Shown: one piece after another, positions 1 through 22,847 of the stretch
Layout of the letters: the number at the start of each line of letters is the position of its first letter
Position numbering within the stretch: the first letter of the stretch is position 1
Origin: Syntrophaceae bacterium
Lineage (GTDB): Bacteria > Desulfobacterota > Syntrophia > Syntrophales > UBA5619
Assembly (NCBI GenBank): GCA_003141195.1
Contig: PLLC01000011.1
Coordinates: 1-37,670, forward strand
Reading direction: 5' to 3'
DNA: 37,670 nt
The notes under the pieces: model-generated
What the model was told of the DNA's origin: nothing
Database searches by the model: none
The model's input: the letters and a program-made list of their open reading frames with translations, nothing else
Translations under genes and position numbers: made by a program

Positions 1-1
1 C

Positions 2-151
2 TTCGTCTATCTGACCTGCGGGGACCACTCCATCGTTGCCCGGATGGAGGTGCCGGAGCGCCCGCTGACTGTGGGACAGACCCTCGAGGTGGACCTGAAG
101 ATGGTAAAAACCCATATTTTCGACAAGGAGACGTCACGGACCATCGTGTAG
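2..151 (+). CDS. Sugar ABC transporter ATP-binding protein, C-terminal end (partial)
   Basis: The last 49 codons of a gene that begins before the window. The translated tail holds a run like VGQTLEVDLKMVKTHIFD followed by KETSRTIV and the stop. This matches the end of the TOBE region of MalK/UgpC/MsmX-type ATPases, where a conserved HxFD-xxT motif closes the protein. Such ATPases energise uptake by MalF/MalG-type permeases at the cytoplasmic face of the membrane. Two such permeases and a binding protein lie at 2640-5922 on the opposite strand, so this is plausibly their missing ATPase. The Walker motifs are outside the window and cannot be checked. The gene is GC-rich, like the transporter genes and unlike the AT-rich genes that follow. 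Confidence 0.8.
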   Translation, partial: FVYLTCGDHSIVARMEVPERPLTVGQTLEVDLKMVKTHIFDKETSRTIV

Positions 152-261
152 GAAATAGGGGAAATATGTATTTTAATCAATATGAACGAATTACTGCAGC
201 CTCAACCATGAGGGTAGCAACAATTTTATTTTGATGGAAGATTAAAATAGGTGAATTTTAA
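152..261. other. AT-rich leader with a small hairpin
   Basis: Base composition changes sharply to AT-rich within about 20 bases of the preceding stop. A short stem-loop (cctca/tgagg around acca, 200-213) is followed by AATTTTATTTT and could be a weak terminator for the ATPase gene. A Shine-Dalgarno-like AGGTGA precedes the next start. Confidence 0.3.
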
Positions 262-1305
262 ATGGAAAAGAGAAAATGCGGTAATTCAGACTTAGAACTA
301 TCTGTATTGGGATTAGGATGCTGGGCTTTTGGAGGTGGAAAATATTGGGGTTATCCGGATCAGGAAGATATAAATAGAACTGTAAAATGCGCCGTTGATT
401 TGGGAATTAATTATTTTGATACGGCGGAAGCTTATAATGACGGAAATAGTGAAAGTTCTTTAGGAGAAGCAATTCAGGGAATTCCAAGAGATAAATTGAT
501 CATCGGCACTAAAATAAGTCCTTCAAACACGAATCCTAAAGTTCTTATGGAACACTGCGAGGCAAGTTTAAGAAGAATTAAAACAGATTATATCGATCTG
601 TACATGGTTCACTGGCCTATAACTTTAAAGGCGATTGCGCATTTTACTGATCAAAAAGTTGAATGCCCGTCAATAAATGATGCTTTTAAAACTTTAAGGA
701 AACTTAAAGAACAGGGTAAAATCAGGTATATTGGTATCAGTAATTTTGCAAAAAATACATTGAAAGAAGTAGTTGATACAAATACAGAAATTGTTGTAAA
801 TGAACTCCCATATAATTTACTGTGCCGCGCAATTGAATATGATATTTTACCGGAATGTATCAAACAAGGCATAGGAGTGATAGGATATTTTGCGTTACTT
901 CAAGGAGTTCTGGCTGATATTTATCCTGCTTTAGATGATGTACCTGCAATGCAACGACGGACAAGACATTTCGATTCCAGAAAATGTAATGATGTTCGTC
1001 ATGGAGAGAATGGTGCTGAAGAAGAAACAAATGAGTGTTTAAAGCAGATTAGGATGATCGCTAAGGAATATGGGTTAACAATGCCTCAAATAGCCTTAAA
1101 ATGGGCGATAGCAAATAGAGAAATCTCTTGTACTTTAGCAGGTGCTCGAAATAAAGCCAAGCTTGAAGATAATGTTCATTCTGTCAAAGAACCTTTGACT
1201 AAAGATATTGTTGAAAAATTGAATAAAGTAACAGATAATTTAAAAGAAAAACTTGGGAGATCATTTGACTATTATGAAACAGTATCAAATGACAGAACCA
1301 TATAA
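262..1305 (+). CDS. Aldo/keto reductase
   Basis: A 347-residue cytosolic NAD(P)H-dependent oxidoreductase of the aldo/keto reductase superfamily, a TIM-barrel fold. The catalytic tetrad is visible as Asp53, Tyr58, Lys84 and His117. The family signatures are present too: NYFDTAEAY in the N-terminal part, GKIRYIGISNF in the middle, and a late ALKWAIAN-TLAGARN segment that in this family helps bind the cofactor phosphate. The substrate cannot be read from sequence. Its partners, a short-chain dehydrogenase and an RbsD/FucU mutarotase immediately downstream on the same strand, suggest oxidation or reduction of a free sugar or sugar lactone. The gene is strikingly AT-rich compared with the rest of the window, which points to acquisition from a low-GC donor. 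An AGGTGA ribosome-binding site supports this start. Confidence 0.88.
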   Translation: MEKRKCGNSDLELSVLGLGCWAFGGGKYWGYPDQEDINRTVKCAVDLGINYFDTAEAYNDGNSESSLGEAIQGIPRDKLIIGTKISPSNTNPKVLMEHCEASLRRIKTDYIDLYMVHWPITLKAIAHFTDQKVECPSINDAFKTLRKLKEQGKIRYIGISNFAKNTLKEVVDTNTEIVVNELPYNLLCRAIEYDILPECIKQGIGVIGYFALLQGVLADIYPALDDVPAMQRRTRHFDSRKCNDVRHGENGAEEETNECLKQIRMIAKEYGLTMPQIALKWAIANREISCTLAGARNKAKLEDNVHSVKEPLTKDIVEKLNKVTDNLKEKLGRSFDYYETVSNDRTI

Positions 1306-1360
1306 TAAATTTTCATTCTTTTTATTGGAAAAAGGAAGTCCTCATGTCTGGTCCCCTTAC

Positions 1361-1376
1361 CTGAAAATGTTTTCAG
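1361..1376. repeat. Short palindrome in the gap between the two dehydrogenase genes
   Basis: CTGAAAATGTTTTCAG forms a 7-bp stem with a two-base loop, 23 bases before the next start. It could be an operator or an mRNA hairpin; no function can be assigned. Confidence 0.3.
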
Positions 1377-1398
1377 ATATTCTATTTTAGGAGAAAAT

Positions 1399-2160
1399 AT
1401 GGGTTCGTTAATAGGGAAAAAAGCTTTTATTACCGGTGCTGGACAGGGCATAGGTAAGGCTGTCGGAGAAGAACTTTTAAAAGCCGGGTGTGATATCTTT
1501 GTCAATACGTATAAAGATCTGGAAGGCGCTGCTGAACTTGCAAGTCTTGCCAAATCAGTGGGAAGAAAAGCCGGCTATTTCCAAGCAGATTTGACCGACG
1601 AAGAATCTGCAAAAAAATGTGTACAAAATGCGGTTTCATTTCTGGGTGGTTTGGATATTTTGATTAATAATACCGGCGGACTGATCAGGCGTAAAATGAT
1701 TCATGAAGTTGATATTGAATTCTGGAAAGCGGTAATTGAGCTTAATTTAACGACAATGATGGTTGTGACAAGAGAATGTATTCCGCATCTCGGAAAATCC
1801 GGCAGTGCAAGCATTGTAAATCTTGCTTCCCTTGCAGGAAGAAAAGGTGGCCATCCTGGGTCACTTGTTTATTCAATGACCAAAGGCGCTGTTTTAACCT
1901 GGACACGGGCTTTAGCGACAGAACTAGGACCAAAAGGGATAAGAGTCAATTCTGTTGCACCGGGTTTGATCCTCGGTACGAAATTCCATAATACTTTTAC
2001 GACAAAAGAATCTGCGGAGGCTACGATAAAAACGATTCCGCTTGGTCGTGCCGGAAATGTCAACGATGTCGCCCGCCCAGTTGTTTTTCTTGCGTCAGAA
2101 TATGATGGGTTTATAACGGGTGCAACGATAGATATCAACGGTGGTGTTTTGGGATGTTGA
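1399..2160 (+). CDS. Short-chain dehydrogenase/reductase, classical SDR
   Basis: A 253-residue cytosolic oxidoreductase with every hallmark of a classical SDR: the TGAGQGIG nucleotide-binding loop at 12-19, NNTGG at 90-94, Asn116, Ser144, and the Tyr158-Ser-Met-Thr-Lys162 active-site pair. The PG motif after the active site and a C-terminal DINGG segment are also typical. Related enzymes include FabG-like ketoreductases and sugar dehydrogenases such as L-fucose or glucose dehydrogenase; sequence alone does not choose between them. The neighbouring mutarotase-family gene and sugar transporter favour a sugar dehydrogenase. AGGAG lies a few bases before the ATG. Composition is AT-rich like the genes on either side, so the three probably arrived together. 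Confidence 0.88.
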   Translation: MGSLIGKKAFITGAGQGIGKAVGEELLKAGCDIFVNTYKDLEGAAELASLAKSVGRKAGYFQADLTDEESAKKCVQNAVSFLGGLDILINNTGGLIRRKMIHEVDIEFWKAVIELNLTTMMVVTRECIPHLGKSGSASIVNLASLAGRKGGHPGSLVYSMTKGAVLTWTRALATELGPKGIRVNSVAPGLILGTKFHNTFTTKESAEATIKTIPLGRAGNVNDVARPVVFLASEYDGFITGATIDINGGVLGC

Positions 2161-2198
2161 TTTTTTGATTTTCGAAGTCCCTAAAAGAAAGGAAAATA

Positions 2199-2621
2199 AT
2201 GTTAAAAACTAAATTGCTTCATCCGGAAATTCTTCAGGCTCTGGGTAGTTCAGGCCATGGTTCGCAAATTTTGATTGCTGATGGAAATTATCCTTATATA
2301 ACCGGCTCACCGCAAGCGGCCAAGAAAGTATTCTTAAATTTAACTCCCGGATTGGTTAAAGTAATGGATGTATTGAATTTATTGGTTGATATCATTCCTA
2401 TAGAATCTGCTACTGTCATTGTTCCGCCTGACGGGCAAAAACAGGAAATTCATGATGAATTTAAAAAAGTACTGCCTCAGGAAATTAATTTAAAAGAACT
2501 AAAGCGATTTGATTTTTATGATGCTGTGAAATCACCGAATACTTCTCTTGTAATTGCTACAGGTGAACAAAGAAGATTTGCAAATATTTTGCTAACCATT
2601 GGTGTTGTAAAAAGTTCTTAA
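2199..2621 (+). CDS. RbsD/FucU family sugar mutarotase
   Basis: A 140-residue protein of the RbsD/FucU family, which interconverts anomers or ring forms of free sugars such as ribose and L-fucose. The family His is His20 in GHG, followed by Asp28. The conserved end motif GEQRRFANILLTIGV matches the GE-x-x-x-x-ANI-L signature. The RFDFYDAV segment, resembling RFAFYERA of FucU, makes it closer to FucU than to RbsD. Length matches the family (about 130-145). Together with the two dehydrogenases upstream it suggests a catabolic cassette in which a sugar is imported, mutarotated and oxidised. The gene ends 18 bases before the stop of a convergent permease gene; no clear terminator is seen between them. 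Confidence 0.82.
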   Translation: MLKTKLLHPEILQALGSSGHGSQILIADGNYPYITGSPQAAKKVFLNLTPGLVKVMDVLNLLVDIIPIESATVIVPPDGQKQEIHDEFKKVLPQEINLKELKRFDFYDAVKSPNTSLVIATGEQRRFANILLTIGVVKSS

Positions 2622-2639
2622 ATAATAGTTTCACACTCT

Positions 2640-3515
2640 TTAGCCCTTCAGGCCACTCATCACGACGGCCTGGACCACCCAGCGCTGCAGCGTGATAAAG
2701 ATGAGCAGGATGGGTAGGATGCTGATCACCGCGGCGGCGGTGAGCAGGTTATACTCGATGAAGTACATGTTGGTGAAACTCATCAAGCCCATGGTGACCA
2801 CCTTCATCGTGGGGCTGTTAATCACCACCATCGGCCAGAAGAACTCGTTCCAGTTCCACATGAACTTGATGATCAGCAGGGTGGCCATGGCCGGCTTCAC
2901 CGACGGCAGAATCACCGAGAAGAAGATGCGGAGTTCACTGCAGCCGTCGATGCGGGCCTGGTCGATGTAGTCGTTGGGAATCATCTCGATGGCCTGCCGC
3001 ATCAGGAAGACGCCGAAGACGCTGACCAAGTCTGGGGCCACGATGCCCATGTAGGTATCGAGCAGCCCGAGATGGTTCATCCAGTTGTATAGCGGCACCA
3101 CGACCGACTGGAAGGGGACCATCATGATGCCGACGACAGCGAGGAAGAAGGCATCCCGTCCGGGGAAGTGATACTTTGCAAATCCAAAGCCCGCCAACGA
3201 CGAGACCACCAGACTGCTCACGGCGGCGATCGAGGCGACGATGGTGCTGTTCAGCAGGTAGCGCAGGAAGGGTTCGCGCTTGAAGACTTCGAAGTAGTTG
3301 GTCAGGTTGAACCAGTGGTCGGGGGTGATCTGAAGCGGCACGCGCTGGATTTCGGGGGCGGTTTTCAGCGAGGTGATCGCCATCCAGAAGAAGGGGAAAA
3401 AGATCGTGATGGCGCCACAGGCTACTGCGAGGGTGATGAGCCAGCGGAAGTAAACTTGCCGGACGCTGAGGCCCGCGTGGGGAGAAACGTCATCAGATGG
3501 AGCAATGGAATTCAT
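2640..3515 (-). CDS. Sugar ABC transporter permease, MalG/UgpE type
   Basis: An inner-membrane permease of the MalG class, about 291 residues with six predicted membrane helices. The cytoplasmic EAA loop that contacts the ATPase is clear: DYIDQARIDGCSELRIFF, leading to LPSVKPA. The ATG at 3515 is preferred to a TTG four codons earlier because GGGGAAAG lies just before it and MalG proteins usually begin with a short cytoplasmic tail. It is the last gene of a binding protein - permease - permease operon on the minus strand and lies about 110 bases after the first permease. The transported sugar cannot be predicted. Confidence 0.9.
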   Translation of the reverse strand: MNSIAPSDDVSPHAGLSVRQVYFRWLITLAVACGAITIFFPFFWMAITSLKTAPEIQRVPLQITPDHWFNLTNYFEVFKREPFLRYLLNSTIVASIAAVSSLVVSSLAGFGFAKYHFPGRDAFFLAVVGIMMVPFQSVVVPLYNWMNHLGLLDTYMGIVAPDLVSVFGVFLMRQAIEMIPNDYIDQARIDGCSELRIFFSVILPSVKPAMATLLIIKFMWNWNEFFWPMVVINSPTMKVVTMGLMSFTNMYFIEYNLLTAAAVISILPILLIFITLQRWVVQAVVMSGLKG

Positions 3516-3626
3516 GTCTTTCCCCAAACCGGAATCAATATCATCACAAAAGACCCTTCCCTGCTTTGTTACCCTAGCGCCGCAGCTCCACTTCTAAGTC
3601 CCTGCACTTCCGCCCTCAGCAGTTTT

Positions 3627-4535
3627 TCAGTACTCGACGGGTTTTCGGAAGATTCGCCATTGCAGTAAGGTTACCACCAGGAGCGTGATAAAGACGAACA
3701 CCGCCATGACGGAGGCGTCGCCGAATCGGAAGAATTTGAAGGCCGTGTCATACAGCAGCATGATGACGGTCTGACTTGCGCTTGCCGGTCCGCCCTGGGT
3801 TGTGGCGTACACCTGATCGAAGATCTTGAAGTTGAAAATGAGTTCGAGAATGCAGACCATCAGGATCTGCGGGTTGAGCAGCGGCAAGGTGATGTGCCGG
3901 AGTTGCTGGACGGCATTGGCCCCGTCGATTCTGGCCGCCTCGTAATACTGCTCCGGGATCGATTGGAGCGCGGCCAGGAAGATCATGGTGTCGAAGCCGA
4001 TCCGGACCCAGACGCTCACGGCGGCGATGGCCGGGCGCACCTGGAACAGACTCTGCAACCACTTCTGGGGCGGAATGCCGACGAACGACAGGGCGTAGTT
4101 CAGGAAGCCGTAGACCGGTTCGTAGATCCATTGCCAGATGAGGGCAGCCGCGACCAGCGAGGTGGCGAAGGGCAAGAAGTACATGGCGGCCCAGACGTTC
4201 CGCCACTTGAGATTGGTGATCCGGTTGAGACCGAGTGCCACGGCGAGCGCACAGATCACCGTGGTGGGCACGGAGAAGAGCACGAGTTGGATGGTGTTCT
4301 GGACAGCGGTCCAGAAGGTGGAGTCGGTGAGGACCTTTTCATAGAGGCGCAGGCCCACGAACTGGCTCGCTCCGCCTGGGGCGATCTTGTAGAACGAGTA
4401 CATGATGGACTGGGCGAGCGGCAGGATGAAGACGGAGCCGAAGAACAGCAGCGCGGGGAGAACGAACAGGAAGCCCGCACGGTTCTGGCGATCCGAGTAG
4501 TCCTTGGGGAACGCGATGCGAAACCATTGGCGCAT
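3627..4535 (-). CDS. Sugar ABC transporter permease, MalF/UgpA type
   Basis: The partner permease of the MalF/UgpA class, about 302 residues. After a short basic N-terminus comes the first helix (AGFLFVLPALLFFGSVFILP), then the usual family layout. The EAA loop reads EQYYEAARIDGANAVQQLRHITLPLLNP, the expected coupling site for a MalK-like ATPase. The open frame extends upstream to 4685, but that extension overlaps the binding-protein gene and encodes unlikely sequence with an intergenic hairpin in it. The ATG at 4535 (MRQWFRIAF) is therefore taken as the start, with AGGGG upstream. It works with the MalG-like permease downstream and the binding protein upstream. Confidence 0.9.
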   Translation of the reverse strand: MRQWFRIAFPKDYSDRQNRAGFLFVLPALLFFGSVFILPLAQSIMYSFYKIAPGGASQFVGLRLYEKVLTDSTFWTAVQNTIQLVLFSVPTTVICALAVALGLNRITNLKWRNVWAAMYFLPFATSLVAAALIWQWIYEPVYGFLNYALSFVGIPPQKWLQSLFQVRPAIAAVSVWVRIGFDTMIFLAALQSIPEQYYEAARIDGANAVQQLRHITLPLLNPQILMVCILELIFNFKIFDQVYATTQGGPASASQTVIMLLYDTAFKFFRFGDASVMAVFVFITLLVVTLLQWRIFRKPVEY

Positions 4536-4589
4536 AGCAGCAGAGAACCCCTGATCGGGCAAGTGGGCGATTGGGCAATTGGTTGAACA

Positions 4590-4628
4590 GGCAACTTGGC
4601 AACCGGTGAGCCCGGTTGCCAAGTTGCC
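4590..4628 (-). promoter_or_regulatory. Perfect 17-bp intergenic hairpin between binding protein and permease
   Basis: The arms 4590-4606 and 4612-4628 are exact inverted complements around a five-base loop. It sits in the 112-base gap between the binding-protein stop and the permease start. Hairpins at this place in sugar ABC operons (as in malE-malF) are known to stabilise the upstream mRNA or partly stop transcription, giving more binding protein than permease. There is no U-tract, so stabilisation is the likelier role. The gap also has related GCAATTGG/CAACTTGG repeats to its left. Confidence 0.6.
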
Positions 4629-4647
4629 GAACTGCCAGGTTACTTCC

Positions 4648-5922
4648 CTAGTCCTTGAGGATGCGATCCATCCTGGCGGCAGCATCGTCCAGCAAGGGCT
4701 TCGGCTGTCCTTTTCCGAACAGGACGCCTACGACTGCCTCGCCGAAGGCCGTGGCCAACTCATTTGATTTCGGGTGGAAGTAGGTCGGCGGCACCGGCTG
4801 GGCGAGCATATCCTTCGTGGACTGGTAGTCGGGCCGAGACTTCACGTAGGCGGTATCGAGGTTTACCGTCCAGACGGGGAGTATCCCCTGGCTCTGATGA
4901 TGCTCCATGTCGTCCTTGGCATTGCTGATGAACTTGTAAAACTCCCACGCCATTTGCTTGTTCGGGCTGTTCTTGTAAACCAGGTCCGTCCAGGGGAACA
5001 GAGCCCCCGCACCGGGGCAGGTCTTTTCACAGGGCAATGCGTACACCTTGAAGTTCACATCAGGCGCGTTCTTCTTCAGCCAGCCGAAGAACCAGGACTC
5101 GCGGAAGATGACGGCGGCCCGTTTCTGGCCAAAGGCATCTTCGGGATTCCCGAACGCCAAGCTCGCCACCTTGTCCTTCAGGACCAGATTGCCAAAGAAG
5201 GTAAGAGCGGCCACCATCTGTGGGCTGTTGGCATAGCCAGTGGCCTTGTCCAAATCCGGGCTCAGCAGCCGGGCGTCCCAGGCATGGGCAAAGGGGAGGA
5301 ACTTGTCCGTGATCCCCACCGGATGGCCCTTACTGCGGATGGCAAAGCCCACCTGCGTCGGCTCACCCCCCTTGGGGTCGGCAATCGTCAGCTTCTTCAT
5401 GGCCGCCAGCCACTCGTTCATGGTCTTGGGCGGCTTGTCCGGATTCAGGCCGGCCTTCTTGAACATGTCCACGTTGATGTACATCTGCTGGAAGTTGCCG
5501 TGCTCGATGGGTATCCCGTAGCGCACGCCCTTCCACTTGCCGATGGGGATCATGTACTTCGGCAGATTCTCGTCATAGACCTTCTCCAGATCGGCGGGCA
5601 TCTTGTCGCAGAAATCGTACTGCCCGCACCACTGGTTCGCCATCCCCATGAACATGTCAGGCGCGCCACTCTTGGCCATAAAGGCCGCCAGGTACTTGGC
5701 CTCGTATCCCTGGTAAGGGATGGTGACCAGTTCAACCTCGTACCCGGTCTTTTTGGCGAATTCCTTCCCCTTGGTTTCGTACCATTTGTTGAAGTCGGGG
5801 TTCTGTTCCCAGTGGGTCCAGAAGACCAGCTTCTTCTGCTGCGCGAAGCTAGAGTCAGGGATCGTCACGGCAACCAGCACCGCTGCCAGAATTACCAGCA
5901 TCCGCCATCCACCTCGTTGCAT
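4648..5922 (-). CDS. Extracellular sugar-binding protein, ABC transporter family 1
   Basis: A 424-residue periplasmic solute-binding protein. Residues 1-27 form a signal peptide (basic start, LVILAAVLVAVTI core, SSFAQ cleavage region). The mature start, KKLVFWTHWEQNPDFNKWYE, resembles the beginning of UgpB/MalE-like family 1 binding proteins. Internal features such as GAPDMFMG and the hinge-region segments fit the same family. A strong GGAGGAGATC ribosome-binding site precedes the ATG. It is the first gene of the transporter operon, with a plausible promoter upstream. Ligand identity is unknown; the adjacent sugar-oxidising cassette hints at a monosaccharide or oligosaccharide. Confidence 0.9.
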   Translation of the reverse strand: MQRGGWRMLVILAAVLVAVTIPDSSFAQQKKLVFWTHWEQNPDFNKWYETKGKEFAKKTGYEVELVTIPYQGYEAKYLAAFMAKSGAPDMFMGMANQWCGQYDFCDKMPADLEKVYDENLPKYMIPIGKWKGVRYGIPIEHGNFQQMYINVDMFKKAGLNPDKPPKTMNEWLAAMKKLTIADPKGGEPTQVGFAIRSKGHPVGITDKFLPFAHAWDARLLSPDLDKATGYANSPQMVAALTFFGNLVLKDKVASLAFGNPEDAFGQKRAAVIFRESWFFGWLKKNAPDVNFKVYALPCEKTCPGAGALFPWTDLVYKNSPNKQMAWEFYKFISNAKDDMEHHQSQGILPVWTVNLDTAYVKSRPDYQSTKDMLAQPVPPTYFHPKSNELATAFGEAVVGVLFGKGQPKPLLDDAAARMDRILKD

Positions 5923-5997
5923 GATCTCCTCCTTATTTCTTTGAATTCATTAATAATATTGGATAAGACATTGCTTCCGACGGGTCGATGATTTTAT

Positions 5998-6026
5998 CGT
6001 GTAGCAGGTCCAATTTTGTTTGTCAA
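5998..6026 (-). promoter_or_regulatory. Candidate sigma-70 promoter for the sugar transporter operon
   Basis: On the minus strand TTGACA (6021-6026) is followed after exactly 17 bases by TACACG (5998-6003). The -35 is a perfect match; the -10 is weak (3 of 6). It lies about 75 bases before the binding-protein start. Confidence 0.4.
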
Positions 6027-6056
6027 GGGATATTCTGCGGGGTTATTCTGCATCGC

Positions 6057-6253
6057 TGACCTGCCCCCAGAACATGTACCACATTTAAAGTTAGAATTCT
6101 GCCAATTTTTATTTCTCAATGCAGATACGCCTCTGGTGTCGGAGGGCGGTAATTCAAGGGGCTGTGTGGCCTGAACGTGTTGTATTCCAATCGCCATTTT
6201 TCAATCAGTACCTGTGCTTCTCTCAATGTATAGAAGATCTCTCCGTGCAACTG
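6057..6253 (-). mobile_element. IS3-family insertion sequence remnant (right end and transposase C-terminus)
   Basis: Read on the minus strand from 6253 to 6116, the frame encodes a sequence containing EKWRLEYNTFRPHSPL and NYRPPTPEAY before a TGA. This is the well-known C-terminal end of IS3-family OrfB (rve integrase core), with the W-R-x-x-YN-x-x-RPH-L motif. About 60 bases beyond the stop lies TGACCTGCCCCC (6057 on the plus strand), a plausible terminal inverted repeat with the TG/CA ends of this family. Upstream of 6253 the homology stops abruptly, so the catalytic DDE part and OrfA are gone. The element cannot transpose by itself. It marks a past insertion or deletion between the sugar transporter and the housekeeping block. 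Confidence 0.75.
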
Positions 6254-6261
6254 AATAACCA

Positions 6262-6414
6262 TCGGCTATAAGCCGAAGGGTTCAGCGGCCGCGTCGAATG
6301 AATTCGACTACTATGCGGCCTCTTTATGAAATGTTTAAGATCGCTCATCCCTTCGGGATTTCGCAAAACTTTCTTCGCCTGAAGGCGAGGGGTTTCAACC
6401 ATCCCCGAAAGGGA
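6262..6414. other. Cluster of five short hairpins beside the IS remnant
   Basis: Within 153 bases there are five inverted repeats in series: 6262-6276 (tcggc/gccga), a nested one at 6287-6320 (ggccgc and gtcgaa paired with ttcgac and gcggcc), 6347-6359 (atccc/gggat), 6375-6388 (tcgcc/ggcga around tgaa) and 6402-6414 (tccc/ggga around cgaaa). Several have stable UUCG-, GAAA- or UGAA-like loops. No convincing reading frame covers the region. This looks like a structured RNA or an end of a folded mobile element (intron, retroelement or casposon-like). I do not recognise the family. Confidence 0.4.
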
Positions 6415-6722
6415 CACTAAATATAACAACGCATGATAGACGTTTACAGGAAATACGGGCATCGCGCATTTAATGGTCGTGTTTAACTGTTATAAATACT
6501 AATAGATTAACAATCTAAAGTCAATCTGGGATTATGGATCATTCGGTGAGAATTACAAGTGGTAATCATCAATTTTGACAAATGCCTGCCACTCAACAGT
6601 TGTAGGTGGCTTCAATAACCAGCACATGTCTTTTTGGTCAAGCAGTACGGGTTGTAATCTGCTACAAAAAAGCATCGGCCTCCCTTATTGACTACAATAA
6701 ATAATTGATGCCCTGGAGACTT
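6415..6722. other. AT-rich intergenic stretch, nothing recognised
   Basis: About 300 bases, clearly AT-richer than the rsmB gene that follows. I see no coding frame with a ribosome-binding site, no tRNA and no repeat. It may be leftover from the same decayed element as the IS fragment and hairpins. Confidence 0.4.
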
Positions 6723-8093
6723 TTAAACAGGTTTTTCGGAGGTGCGGGTGAAGACCGCCCCGAAGAAGCCGTCCGTGCCGTGGCGGTGGGGGAAGGTCCG
6801 GAAGAAGCCGTCGGCGTCGATGAGTTCCGGGGGGATCCCTCCCGGTGGGATGCGTTTAAACCCCGGTCGGGCGGCGAGGAGATCGGCGGCGACATCCTCG
6901 TTCTCTTCGGGTGTCACGGTACAGACGCAGTAGACCAGGAGGCCGCCCGGCTTCACGCAGTCCGCCGCACCACGGAGGAGGCGTTTCTGGATCTGCAAAC
7001 ATTTTTTGAGGTCCATCGGGGCGATCCGCCAGCGGATCTCCGGGTTCCGCCGGAGCGTGCCGAGGCCGGAGCAGGGGGCGTCGAGGAGGACCCGGTCGAA
7101 GGCGCCGCGAAAGGCCTCCGGCGTCCGGGCTGCGTCCCCCGGATGGGTTTCCACGATGGTCACGCCGAGGCGTCCGGCCTCCGCCGCGAGGAGACGGAGT
7201 TTGTCCGGATGGAGATCGACGGCGGTAATTTCCCCCCGGTTTTTCATGAGGGCGGCCAAGTGAAGCGTCTTTCCCCCCGCGCCGGCGCACAGGTCGAGGA
7301 TCCGTTCGCCGGGCCGCGGGGCGATGAGGCGGGAGACCAGTTGGGACGCCTCGTCCTGAACCCGGATCAGGCCGTTCCGGAAGGCGGCCGTCTCCCGGAG
7401 GCCGGCGGCGGGGGTGGGGAGGATGATGCCGTCGGGGGAGAAGCGGGCCGTTTCGGCGGTGATTCCATCTTCTGCGATCGCCGCGATCGCCTTCTCTCGC
7501 GATGTTTTCAGGGCGTTCACGCGGATGGCCAGCGGTGGGATGGTGTTGTTCGCTCGGCAGATGGCGATGGTTTCGTCGATGCCGTACCGGTCCAGCCAGC
7601 GCTCGACGAGCCAGCGGGGGTGGGAATGGAGGACGGCGATTGCCCTGCCGGGGTCCTTCGCCATGTCCGGCCAGGCGATGACATCCTTTTCCCGGAGGGC
7701 ATTCCGGAGGATGGCGTTCACCAGTCCTGCAGCGGCCGGGCAGATCTGCTTTGCGATGCCGACGGCCTCGTTCACCACGGCGAAGGCGGGGATCCGGTCG
7801 GTGAAGAGGAGCTGGTAGAGCCCCGTCCGGAGGATGTTCCGGACCGGCGTCTCCAGGGCGGCGTCATCCCCCCGGTAAAATCGGCCGATGATCCAGTCCA
7901 GGCGGCCCCGCATCCGGAGTGTGCCGTAGACGAGCTCGGTGATGAGCCTCCGGTCCTGGGGGTTTTGGATGCCCGTTCCGGAGAGGGCGGCGTCGAGGAG
8001 GGGTTCCGCATAGTCCCCCTTCTGATCGATCCGGTTCAGGATCTCTATGGCGGTGCCCCGCGCCGTCTTCGGTTTTTTCCGTTCGTCCGTCAT
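6723..8093 (-). CDS. rsmB: 16S rRNA (cytosine-C5) methyltransferase RsmB
   Basis: A 456-residue enzyme that methylates cytosine 967 (E. coli numbering) of 16S rRNA using S-adenosylmethionine. The N-terminal ~135 residues are a NusB-like RNA-binding domain, the mark of RsmB/Sun/Fmu over other RNA m5C methyltransferases. The methyltransferase core has the SAM-binding DLCAGAGGKT at 268-277, the DAPCSGLG motif with Cys341, and CVCTVTPEEN with the catalytic-type Cys391. Length is typical. The ATG overlaps the stop of a possible small frame (ATGA), suggesting translational coupling in the priA-fmt-rsmB operon. Confidence 0.95.
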   Translation of the reverse strand: MTDERKKPKTARGTAIEILNRIDQKGDYAEPLLDAALSGTGIQNPQDRRLITELVYGTLRMRGRLDWIIGRFYRGDDAALETPVRNILRTGLYQLLFTDRIPAFAVVNEAVGIAKQICPAAAGLVNAILRNALREKDVIAWPDMAKDPGRAIAVLHSHPRWLVERWLDRYGIDETIAICRANNTIPPLAIRVNALKTSREKAIAAIAEDGITAETARFSPDGIILPTPAAGLRETAAFRNGLIRVQDEASQLVSRLIAPRPGERILDLCAGAGGKTLHLAALMKNRGEITAVDLHPDKLRLLAAEAGRLGVTIVETHPGDAARTPEAFRGAFDRVLLDAPCSGLGTLRRNPEIRWRIAPMDLKKCLQIQKRLLRGAADCVKPGGLLVYCVCTVTPEENEDVAADLLAARPGFKRIPPGGIPPELIDADGFFRTFPHRHGTDGFFGAVFTRTSEKPV

Positions 8094-20699: not shown

Positions 20700-22847
20700 A
20701 TGTTTGACGAGTCTCGGGTATCCGAAATTGAATTAAAAGTGGCGGAGGTTTTCATCGAAGACGTTGGCAAGGGGTTGGCGCGCTTTGACCCTGACGACGT
20801 TAAGGCCTTAGGCGCTTCTCTTGGTGATATCGTTGAGATTATTGGAGAAAAAAATACCGTCGCCAGAATTTCAGGGATTTTCCCCGAACATATTGGCAAA
20901 AAAATAATCCAAATTGACGGAAATACCCGTGAGAACGCCAGGGTTCAGGTAGGCGGCACGGTGAAGATTAAAAAGGCGCCCCGGAAAACCGCAACCATGA
21001 TCGTTCTCACCCCGATCGATTCCGGAAACTGGTGGCCTGACGAAAGCGAGGTGGGATACATCGGCAAGGTCCTGCAGGGGTTGGCGGTGATTGCCGGCGA
21101 CAAACTGAATATTCCGCTTTTCGGGGGCAAGGACCGTTTCTTTTCCGTTGATGGCACTTCGCCCTCCGGAGCGGTCATCATCAACCAGCACACCAAGTTC
21201 AAGGTCAACAAACCCGACTATACCGTAGCGGCGGACTCCCGTATTTCTTATGAAGATATCGGCGGATTGGATCGGGAGTTGAGATCCATTCGGGAGATGG
21301 TGGAAATCCCCCTGCGTTACGGGGAAATCTTCGACAGATTGGGCGTCGAGGCGCCGAAAGGGTTGCTCCTCTACGGACCGCCGGGAACCGGAAAGACCCT
21401 CATTGCCCGTGCCATTGCGGGAGAGGCAAAGCTCCACTTTATCAAAATCAACGGGCCGGAAATTATCCAAAAATATTACGGTGACAGCGAGGCCAGGTTG
21501 CGCGAGATATTTGAAGAGGCAACGCGCAAAGCTCCGAGCGTCATCTTTATCGATGAAATTGACGCCATTGCCCCGAAGCGCGCCGAGGTTGTGGGGGATG
21601 TGGAAAAGAGGGTGGTGGCACAGCTTCTGGCGCTTATGGACGGAACGGTTCCCCGCGGTCATGTTCTCGTAATCGGCGCGACCAATGTCCCGGAAATGAT
21701 AGACCCTGCGTTGCGCAGACCGGGCCGGTTTGATCGGGAAATCGGCCTCTCAGCCCCTCACTCGGACGGACGCCTGGCCATCCTGAAGATTCACAGCCGT
21801 CGTATGCCCCTTGCAACCGATATCGATCTGGATCAGATTGCACAGATTACCCACGGTTTTGTGGGGGCCGATATCGAAGCACTGTGCAAAGAAGCCGGCA
21901 TGGCTGCCGTGCGGAGATATCTGCCGGTGGGCGCTTTGGGAAATTCCGACCGTCTCCCTGTGACTCCGGAAAGCATGCGGATTTCCCGCGAAGATTTTCT
22001 GACGGCCCTCCGTGAGGTTGAACCTACGGCAACCCGTGAATTCTTTAACGAAAGGTCCACCTTGAAGCTCAGCGACATCGGCGGACTGGCCCAAATCAAG
22101 GAGACGCTCCTCTCCATTGTCGATTGGCCGCTTAAATATCCTGAACTTTTCGCTTCGGGCAAGGTCACGTCACGCGGCATCCTGCTGTCCGGCCCTTCCG
22201 GAACCGGGAAGACCATGATGGTAAGGGCTCTTGCCGGGGAAACCGGTATCAATTTTATCCCGATCAGCAGTTCCATCCTTTTTTCAAAATGGCTGGGAGA
22301 ATCGGAAAAGGCACTGCATGGGATATTCAAAAAGGCCAAGCAATCCGCTCCGACCATTCTCTTTTTCGATGAAATCGATGCCTTGGCGCCAAAACGTGGT
22401 GAAGATACAGGATCAGGGGCGGTTGAACGCGTGGCGAGCCAGTTTTTCAACGAACTGGACGGGCTGAGCGATCTGTCTCAGGTGATCGTCATCGGGGCTA
22501 CCAATCGGGAAGACTTGCTCGACCCGGCCCTGGTGCGGCCCGGCCGTCTCGATTACATTCTCAAGTTTTATGCCCCGGATGAGAGGGAGCGACGGGAAAT
22601 ATTCCGCATCAACACCCACGGGAGGCCATTGAGCAGCGACGTGGATCTTGGAGTGCTGGCAAGCATCACGGAGGGGATGGTCGGCTCACACATCGCCTTC
22701 ATATGCAAAAGGGCGACGATGCTGGCCATTGCGGACTTAATCCGGGAACAGCAGGGAAAAAACCACGAAAAGCTTTCCGTGTCCGCAGCACACTTTAAAA
22801 TGGCGATCGAGGAACTCAGAAAAAACGATGAGGCAAGGCAGTGCTGA
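20700..22847 (+). CDS. CDC48/p97-like AAA+ ATPase with two ATPase domains
   Basis: A 715-residue protein with the complete archaeal/eukaryotic CDC48 plan: an N-terminal substrate domain (about 1-180), D1 and D2 AAA+ domains. D1 has Walker A GPPGTGKT 226-233, Walker B VIFIDE 281-286, pore loop KYYG 258-261, sensor ATN and arginine fingers around 340-343. D2 has GPSGTGKT 498-505, ILFFDE 553-558, KWLG 530-533 and Arg613/Arg616. Both domains thus look active. In archaea and eukaryotes such hexamers unfold proteins; bacterial members are less common and poorly known. Its TGA overlaps the start of a GntR gene, and the oxidoreductase genes follow on the same strand. It is probably the first gene of that operon. 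Its composition is somewhat lower in GC than the housekeeping genes, so transfer is possible. Confidence 0.93.
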   Translation: MFDESRVSEIELKVAEVFIEDVGKGLARFDPDDVKALGASLGDIVEIIGEKNTVARISGIFPEHIGKKIIQIDGNTRENARVQVGGTVKIKKAPRKTATMIVLTPIDSGNWWPDESEVGYIGKVLQGLAVIAGDKLNIPLFGGKDRFFSVDGTSPSGAVIINQHTKFKVNKPDYTVAADSRISYEDIGGLDRELRSIREMVEIPLRYGEIFDRLGVEAPKGLLLYGPPGTGKTLIARAIAGEAKLHFIKINGPEIIQKYYGDSEARLREIFEEATRKAPSVIFIDEIDAIAPKRAEVVGDVEKRVVAQLLALMDGTVPRGHVLVIGATNVPEMIDPALRRPGRFDREIGLSAPHSDGRLAILKIHSRRMPLATDIDLDQIAQITHGFVGADIEALCKEAGMAAVRRYLPVGALGNSDRLPVTPESMRISREDFLTALREVEPTATREFFNERSTLKLSDIGGLAQIKETLLSIVDWPLKYPELFASGKVTSRGILLSGPSGTGKTMMVRALAGETGINFIPISSSILFSKWLGESEKALHGIFKKAKQSAPTILFFDEIDALAPKRGEDTGSGAVERVASQFFNELDGLSDLSQVIVIGATNREDLLDPALVRPGRLDYILKFYAPDERERREIFRINTHGRPLSSDVDLGVLASITEGMVGSHIAFICKRATMLAIADLIREQQGKNHEKLSVSAAHFKMAIEELRKNDEARQC

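Follow-up and report, generated by a model that had tools for sequence, protein, structure and literature searches.

A probably laterally acquired AT-rich cassette encoding an aldo/keto reductase, a short-chain dehydrogenase/reductase and a Phe-type FucU homologue, tentatively linked to hexuronate metabolism, in a Syntrophaceae bacterium

How did three AT-rich genes encoding putative sugar enzymes come to lie beside a GC-rich sugar transporter, and which substrate might they serve? The genes are located within a stretch of 37,670 bases (here denoted the window) that makes up one entire contig (C57) of a 108-contig, 3.27 Mb Syntrophaceae assembly with a completeness of 96.3%. They encode an aldo/keto reductase (AKR), a short-chain dehydrogenase/reductase (SDR) and a protein of the RbsD/FucU family (here denoted FucU). 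All three reading frames are intact and share one strand, and the gaps between them, 93 and 38 bp, are compatible with a single operon (Table 1).

Table 1. Features of the left end of the window
Feature	Position	Strand	Evidence
Left flanking gene, final 49 aa, truncated by contig end; possible ABC ATPase C terminus; outside cassette	2-151	+	
AT-rich insert overall, stop codon to stop codon of flanking genes	152-2639	.	GC in 50-bp bins, GC3, codon usage
Aldo/keto reductase (AKR), 347 aa	262-1305	+	PF00248, E 1.2e-62
Short-chain dehydrogenase/reductase (SDR), 253 aa	1399-2160	+	PF13561, E 8.3e-54
RbsD/FucU-family protein (FucU), 140 aa, R-R-F replacing usual Tyr motif	2199-2621	+	PF05025, E 5e-32
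Sugar-type ABC transporter, two permeases and binding protein; outside cassette	2640-5922	-	PF00528 x2, PF13416
Integrase-core (rve_3) transposase remnant, between rsmB and ABC transporter	6116-6262	-	

A first-pass annotation had described the trio as far lower in GC than its flanks, with abrupt ends, and had proposed GC and codon usage as a check. Both measures set the trio sharply apart from the neighbouring genes. The GC content of the AKR, SDR and FucU genes is 0.35, 0.43 and 0.35, and their GC at third codon positions (GC3) is 0.23, 0.33 and 0.24, as against 0.79-0.85 in both permeases, the binding protein, rsmB, fmt and priA. For codon usage, ten other ORFs of the window served as a reference set, and the mean difference in codon frequency from this set was computed. 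The trio differed by 0.29-0.33 and the transporter genes by 0.10-0.14, a host-like value; leaving out each of the ten reference ORFs in turn gave 0.06-0.13, less than half of any value in the trio. The GC content shifts within ~50 bp at each border of the AT-rich block and the breaks coincide with gene ends on both sides, the left one coming after the stop codon at 149-151 and the right one falling in a gap of 18 bp (2622-2639). We sampled 20 stretches of this assembly in 1363 windows of 500 bp; their mean GC was 0.578, and 0.2% of them had a GC of 0.36 or less and 2.5% a GC of 0.43 or less, indicating that AT-rich stretches are present in the assembly but rare. We noticed further AT-rich runs (<0.45 GC) in L075 (1000-3000), L077 (15000-16500), L078 (15250-17000), L092 (1-1750) and L093 (5750-7000), so the trio is perhaps not the sole foreign insert of the assembly.

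The distribution of the genes agrees with their composition. A search of 60 relatives, including 10 congeners, gave no FucU, and the SDR, at E<=1e-70, was found in none of the 296 other genomes of the phylum sample. Homology to five congeners beside rsmB ends at window positions 6695-6748, and positions 1-6694 have no match in the DNA beyond rsmB of these congeners (~0.4 to 12 kb examined). We therefore regard positions 1-6700 as a variable tract and the trio as an AT-rich insert within it. The searches with FucU, the SDR and this tract did not reveal the same composition and order in relatives, in line with the transfer suspected at first pass, and the conclusion that the trio is a laterally gained, small foreign operon is well supported. 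It provides a clear case of the gain of a small catabolic operon, two of whose three genes are missing from the examined relatives, whatever its substrate. In the rsmB genes of two congeners (L069 and L070) the match reads through one in-frame TGA each, which may be a sequencing error, a pseudogene or recoding.

An AT-rich block could also be an assembly chimera. The assembly is fragmented, with a contamination of 3.48%, the block lies close to a contig end, and its borders carry no repeats of at least 14 nt such as transposon ends or a target-site repeat. However, a chimera needs two joins, each at a gene end and with the next gene 18 bp away on the right, and the coincidence of the composition breaks with gene ends on both sides argues against it; the assembly also contains no second copy of the block. 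We consider this explanation very improbable.

Several vehicles of transfer were considered and rejected. Transposon ends found no support, given the lack of border repeats of this length, nor did tRNA-linked integration, as ARAGORN detected zero tRNA genes in the window; a transposase remnant lies 3.5 kb away from the trio. Searches for a plasmid-borne donor gave zero matches for the SDR (at 1e-60) and for the ABC binding protein (at 1e-30), a single haloarchaeal match for the AKR (35.7%) and two actinobacterial matches for FucU (41-45%). At 1e-90, the AKR was found among 395 sampled Bacteroidota genomes in the seed genome only, indicating that it is uncommon in that phylum. A promoter scan detected 13 promoter-like sites as compared to 8.2 +/- 2.6 in shuffled sequences, and a terminator scan one terminator-like site as compared to 1.6; neither count is informative.

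In the first-pass annotation the genes on the two sides of the trio, an ATPase and permeases, may be parts of one transport system, but the case for this arrangement is weak. As the contig begins where the window does, all that remains of the left flanking gene is a tail of 49 residues, which has no Pfam match and one weak match as an ABC ATPase (7x0q, E 0.058). Moreover, this gene and the permeases are convergent and hence do not form one operon. Of the 60 relatives, five have matches to the ABC binding protein, and these are distant (25-29% identity, with one of 44% over 63 residues). Where the reading frames of the binding protein and the first permease overlap, we noticed a perfect inverted repeat of 17 nt around a loop of 5 nt (4590-4628), which also gave a self-match in the search of the own genome.

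The three proteins belong to known families. Both oxidoreductases match their superfamily profiles. Residues D53, Y58, K84 and H117 of the AKR, which we take to be the catalytic tetrad, are invariant in 7 aligned sequences, and the protein scores below every NCBIfam equivalog cut-off. Likewise, N116, S144, Y158 and K162 of the SDR, presumably its catalytic residues, are invariant in 11 aligned sequences; its best NCBIfam model gives 208.2 bits, slightly below the cut-off of 215. Among solved structures, the SDR is closer to the uncharacterised protein 4yqy (193 bits) than to 4tkl (133 bits), a reductase of the unsaturated uronate DEH; such DEH reductases are among its better solved matches, but not the nearest. 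FucU shares with the RbsD/FucU mutarotases the family match (PF05025, 111.7 bits, curated cut-off 25), the predicted fold (pLDDT 89.8; best match FucU 3mvk, Foldseek probability 1.00, TM 0.79) and residues H20, D28 and N129, invariant across 29 aligned sequences. It falls below the equivalog cut-offs for L-fucose mutarotase (NF011949, 40.2 versus 141 bits) and for RbsD D-ribose pyranase (NF008761, 48.6 versus 93 bits). It differs from these enzymes in its C-terminal motif, R125-R126-Phe127, where all five solved relatives listed (5 of 7) have a Tyr that we assume to be functional in FucU/RbsD enzymes.

To learn in which company such genes occur, we scanned a species-genome collection with FucU as query, which yielded 37 loci and passes over loci with a diverged FucU. 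A window-like SDR (at least 45% identity) is present in the fetched stretch of 13 of these, adjoining FucU in 11 and one gene off in two (L024 and L033). Seven of the 13 carry a homologue of the gluconokinase GntK, six an alginate lyase homologue (PL6 or PL7), four TRAP subunits and two an anion-symporter-like (ACS-like) MFS transporter. The GntK of L046 passes the TIGR01313 model (152 versus 113.75 bits), and the ACS-like MFS scores 197 bits against TIGR00893, the model that it matches best and whose cut-off is 395. In loci of this alginate/TRAP type (Paraglaciecola, Vibrio and others), the SDR is 55-70% identical to that of the window and at most one gene from a Phe-type FucU; the window cassette, in contrast, has no gluconokinase, TRAP or lyase gene and carries the AKR instead. 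Six loci (L038, L045, L046, L048, L049 and L051) combine an alginate lyase homologue, SDR, Phe-type FucU and GntK homologue, a set for which we found no description in the open-access literature searched.

In four Bacteroidota genomes relatives of the AKR cluster with an MDR dehydrogenase, a GFO/IDH oxidoreductase and an ACS-like MFS, with GH29 fucosidases beside or farther along the cluster and GH78 in two loci; in one of these genomes (G062) FucU lies on a separate contig from the AKR cluster. In L015, FucU, two MDR dehydrogenases and the AKR are consecutive. The Bacteroidota/Fibrobacterota clusters L015 and L017-L019 resemble the window in their AKR (54-60% identical) and Phe-type FucU, but their genomes have no window-like SDR at E<=1e-60, and their MDR, GFO and fucosidase genes are missing from the window cassette. 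Elsewhere, an AKR relative (48%) adjoins TRAP DctP (G077), and the FucU of L032 is preceded by an enolase-superfamily gene and a KDPG-type aldolase. A genome-wide search for AKR and SDR (E<=1e-60) covered the 22 genomes behind 24 loci; for the other 13 loci (L038-L049 and L051) the fetched stretch was searched. AKR was found in 6 of the 22 genomes and SDR in 6, with both in a single genome, on different contigs, so their co-occurrence does not show a shared pathway. All three genes were adjacent in none of the related loci examined, and the trio is thus an association of known families in a combination unseen in those loci.

The fucosidases keep alive the proposal of the first-pass annotation that the trio oxidises a free sugar, as far as the sugar is concerned. 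An oxidative fucose pathway with AKR, SDR and mutarotase is known in Xanthomonas, and the window resembles it in having a mutarotase homologue and oxidoreductases of the same superfamilies. In a corresponding module for L-fucose or another 6-deoxy-hexose, FucU would be the mutarotase, the AKR an aldose 1-dehydrogenase forming the lactone and the SDR a later keto-deoxy-aldonate dehydrogenase. Besides the clustering of AKR relatives with GH29 (and in two loci GH78) and FucU, this agrees with the nearest solved relatives of FucU, which are L-fucose mutarotases among the matches listed. However, the three genes between the flanks include no lactonase or fuconate dehydratase, and one fragment above the cut-off of the enolase-superfamily model is the only dehydratase-type candidate elsewhere in the assembly. 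The relatives of the SDR, moreover, accompany TRAP, gluconokinase and alginate lyase genes, and the Phe-type FucU of the window speaks against fucose as well (see below). We regard the 6-deoxy-hexose module as a serious but rather unlikely alternative. Oxidation of a free sugar is one possible reading; the evidence of the related loci is no weaker for sugar acids, and their gluconokinase, TRAP and alginate lyase genes possibly indicate reduction.

Across the 37 loci the C-terminal motif of FucU has Phe in 23 and Tyr in 14. A window-like SDR or AKR accompanies 20 of the 23 Phe-type proteins (13 with SDR in the stretch, five with AKR and, by the genome-wide search, L028 and L032; the exceptions are L022, L023 and L030) and none of the 14 Tyr-type proteins, nine of which were checked genome-wide. 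A search with three representatives detected FGGY kinase or fucose-isomerase-like genes in 5 of the 14 Tyr loci and in none of the 23 Phe loci, and 7 of the 14 Tyr loci carry an AKR of a different clade. In the FucU tree, where many forks are weak and the position of the window protein is not firm, the Tyr rows form two groups, one including the Phe row L022. The motif split thus follows ancestry in part and the Phe/Tyr counts are not independent events. Of the leads that come from this locus, we find the branch of Phe-type mutarotases the most promising.

Our tentative preference, to which we give not quite an even chance, is that the trio is a laterally gained operon that serves to break down a free aldose by redox steps, the likeliest substrate being a hexuronic acid. 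We infer the substrate class, the direction, the order of steps and the membership of all three proteins in one pathway. FucU would speed the exchange between ring forms of the sugar, the SDR would form the aldonate by reducing the sugar acid at its aldehyde end, and the substrate of the AKR would be either that aldehyde or the aldonate formed from it. Among the relatives of the alginate type, the SDR would convert L-guluronate to D-gluconate, followed by gluconokinase. Reduction of L-guluronate at C1 yields D-gluconate, which fits the presence of that kinase. We prefer a hexuronate because of the sugar-acid company of the related loci (TRAP, ACS-like MFS, gluconokinase and alginate lyases), the motif and the activity of a DEH reductase on gluconate. 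According to one study, the DEH reductase SpsADH, an SDR related to that of the window, oxidises D-gluconate to L-guluronate in vitro, with weak activity (Km 12 mM, 2 U/mg), and in the studies cited there other DEHU reductases showed no gluconate oxidation at 1 mM (PMC6011931). A reductive branch for L-guluronate is missing from the section of a review that deals with this acid (PMC6353982, section 9). We found nothing in the open-access literature searched on a guluronate reductase, dehydrogenase or catabolism, which is not proof of absence in print, and no description there of a reductive route from L-guluronate through D-gluconate to 6-phosphogluconate.

Several observations run counter to the hexuronate reading. 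The GntK model TIGR01313 finds no match in the assembly, GH29 and GH78 genes lie near the AKR relatives, and the ACS-like MFS scores under the TIGR00893 cut-off. The SDR is nearer to 4yqy than to 4tkl and SpsADH is slow on gluconate; to these are added the partial ancestry of the motif split and the single genome with both AKR and SDR.

The alginate lyase homologues in 6 of the 13 SDR loci, KduI in L033 and the DEH reductases among the better solved matches would also fit a variant pathway for lyase products, in which the SDR is itself a DEH reductase and FucU aids the opening of the unsaturated uronate, like KdgF. Yet the window cassette has no lyase, the nearest SDRs are not DEH reductases, and the kinase identified in the SDR loci examined is gluconokinase rather than KDG kinase, which was outside the search. 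This variant seems to us decidedly improbable. Extending the preferred hexuronate reading to the whole branch, FucU proteins with R-[RK]-F might be hexuronate mutarotases coupled to SDR/AKR uronate reductases, with gluconokinase completing a reductive route from L-guluronate through D-gluconate to 6-phosphogluconate, and the window might bring the two types of enzyme together in a mobile unit; we put this forward as speculation that is unlikely to hold in full. If the uronate reading is true, it would give one branch of the mutarotase family a function and a diagnostic motif, and would suggest a step in the metabolism of free guluronate, or of acids like it, that can be put to the test.

Farther along the window, positions 20700-22847 (plus strand) encode a 715-aa Cdc48-type AAA ATPase with CDC48_N, CDC48_2 and two AAA modules, a type of protein better known in archaea and eukaryotes.
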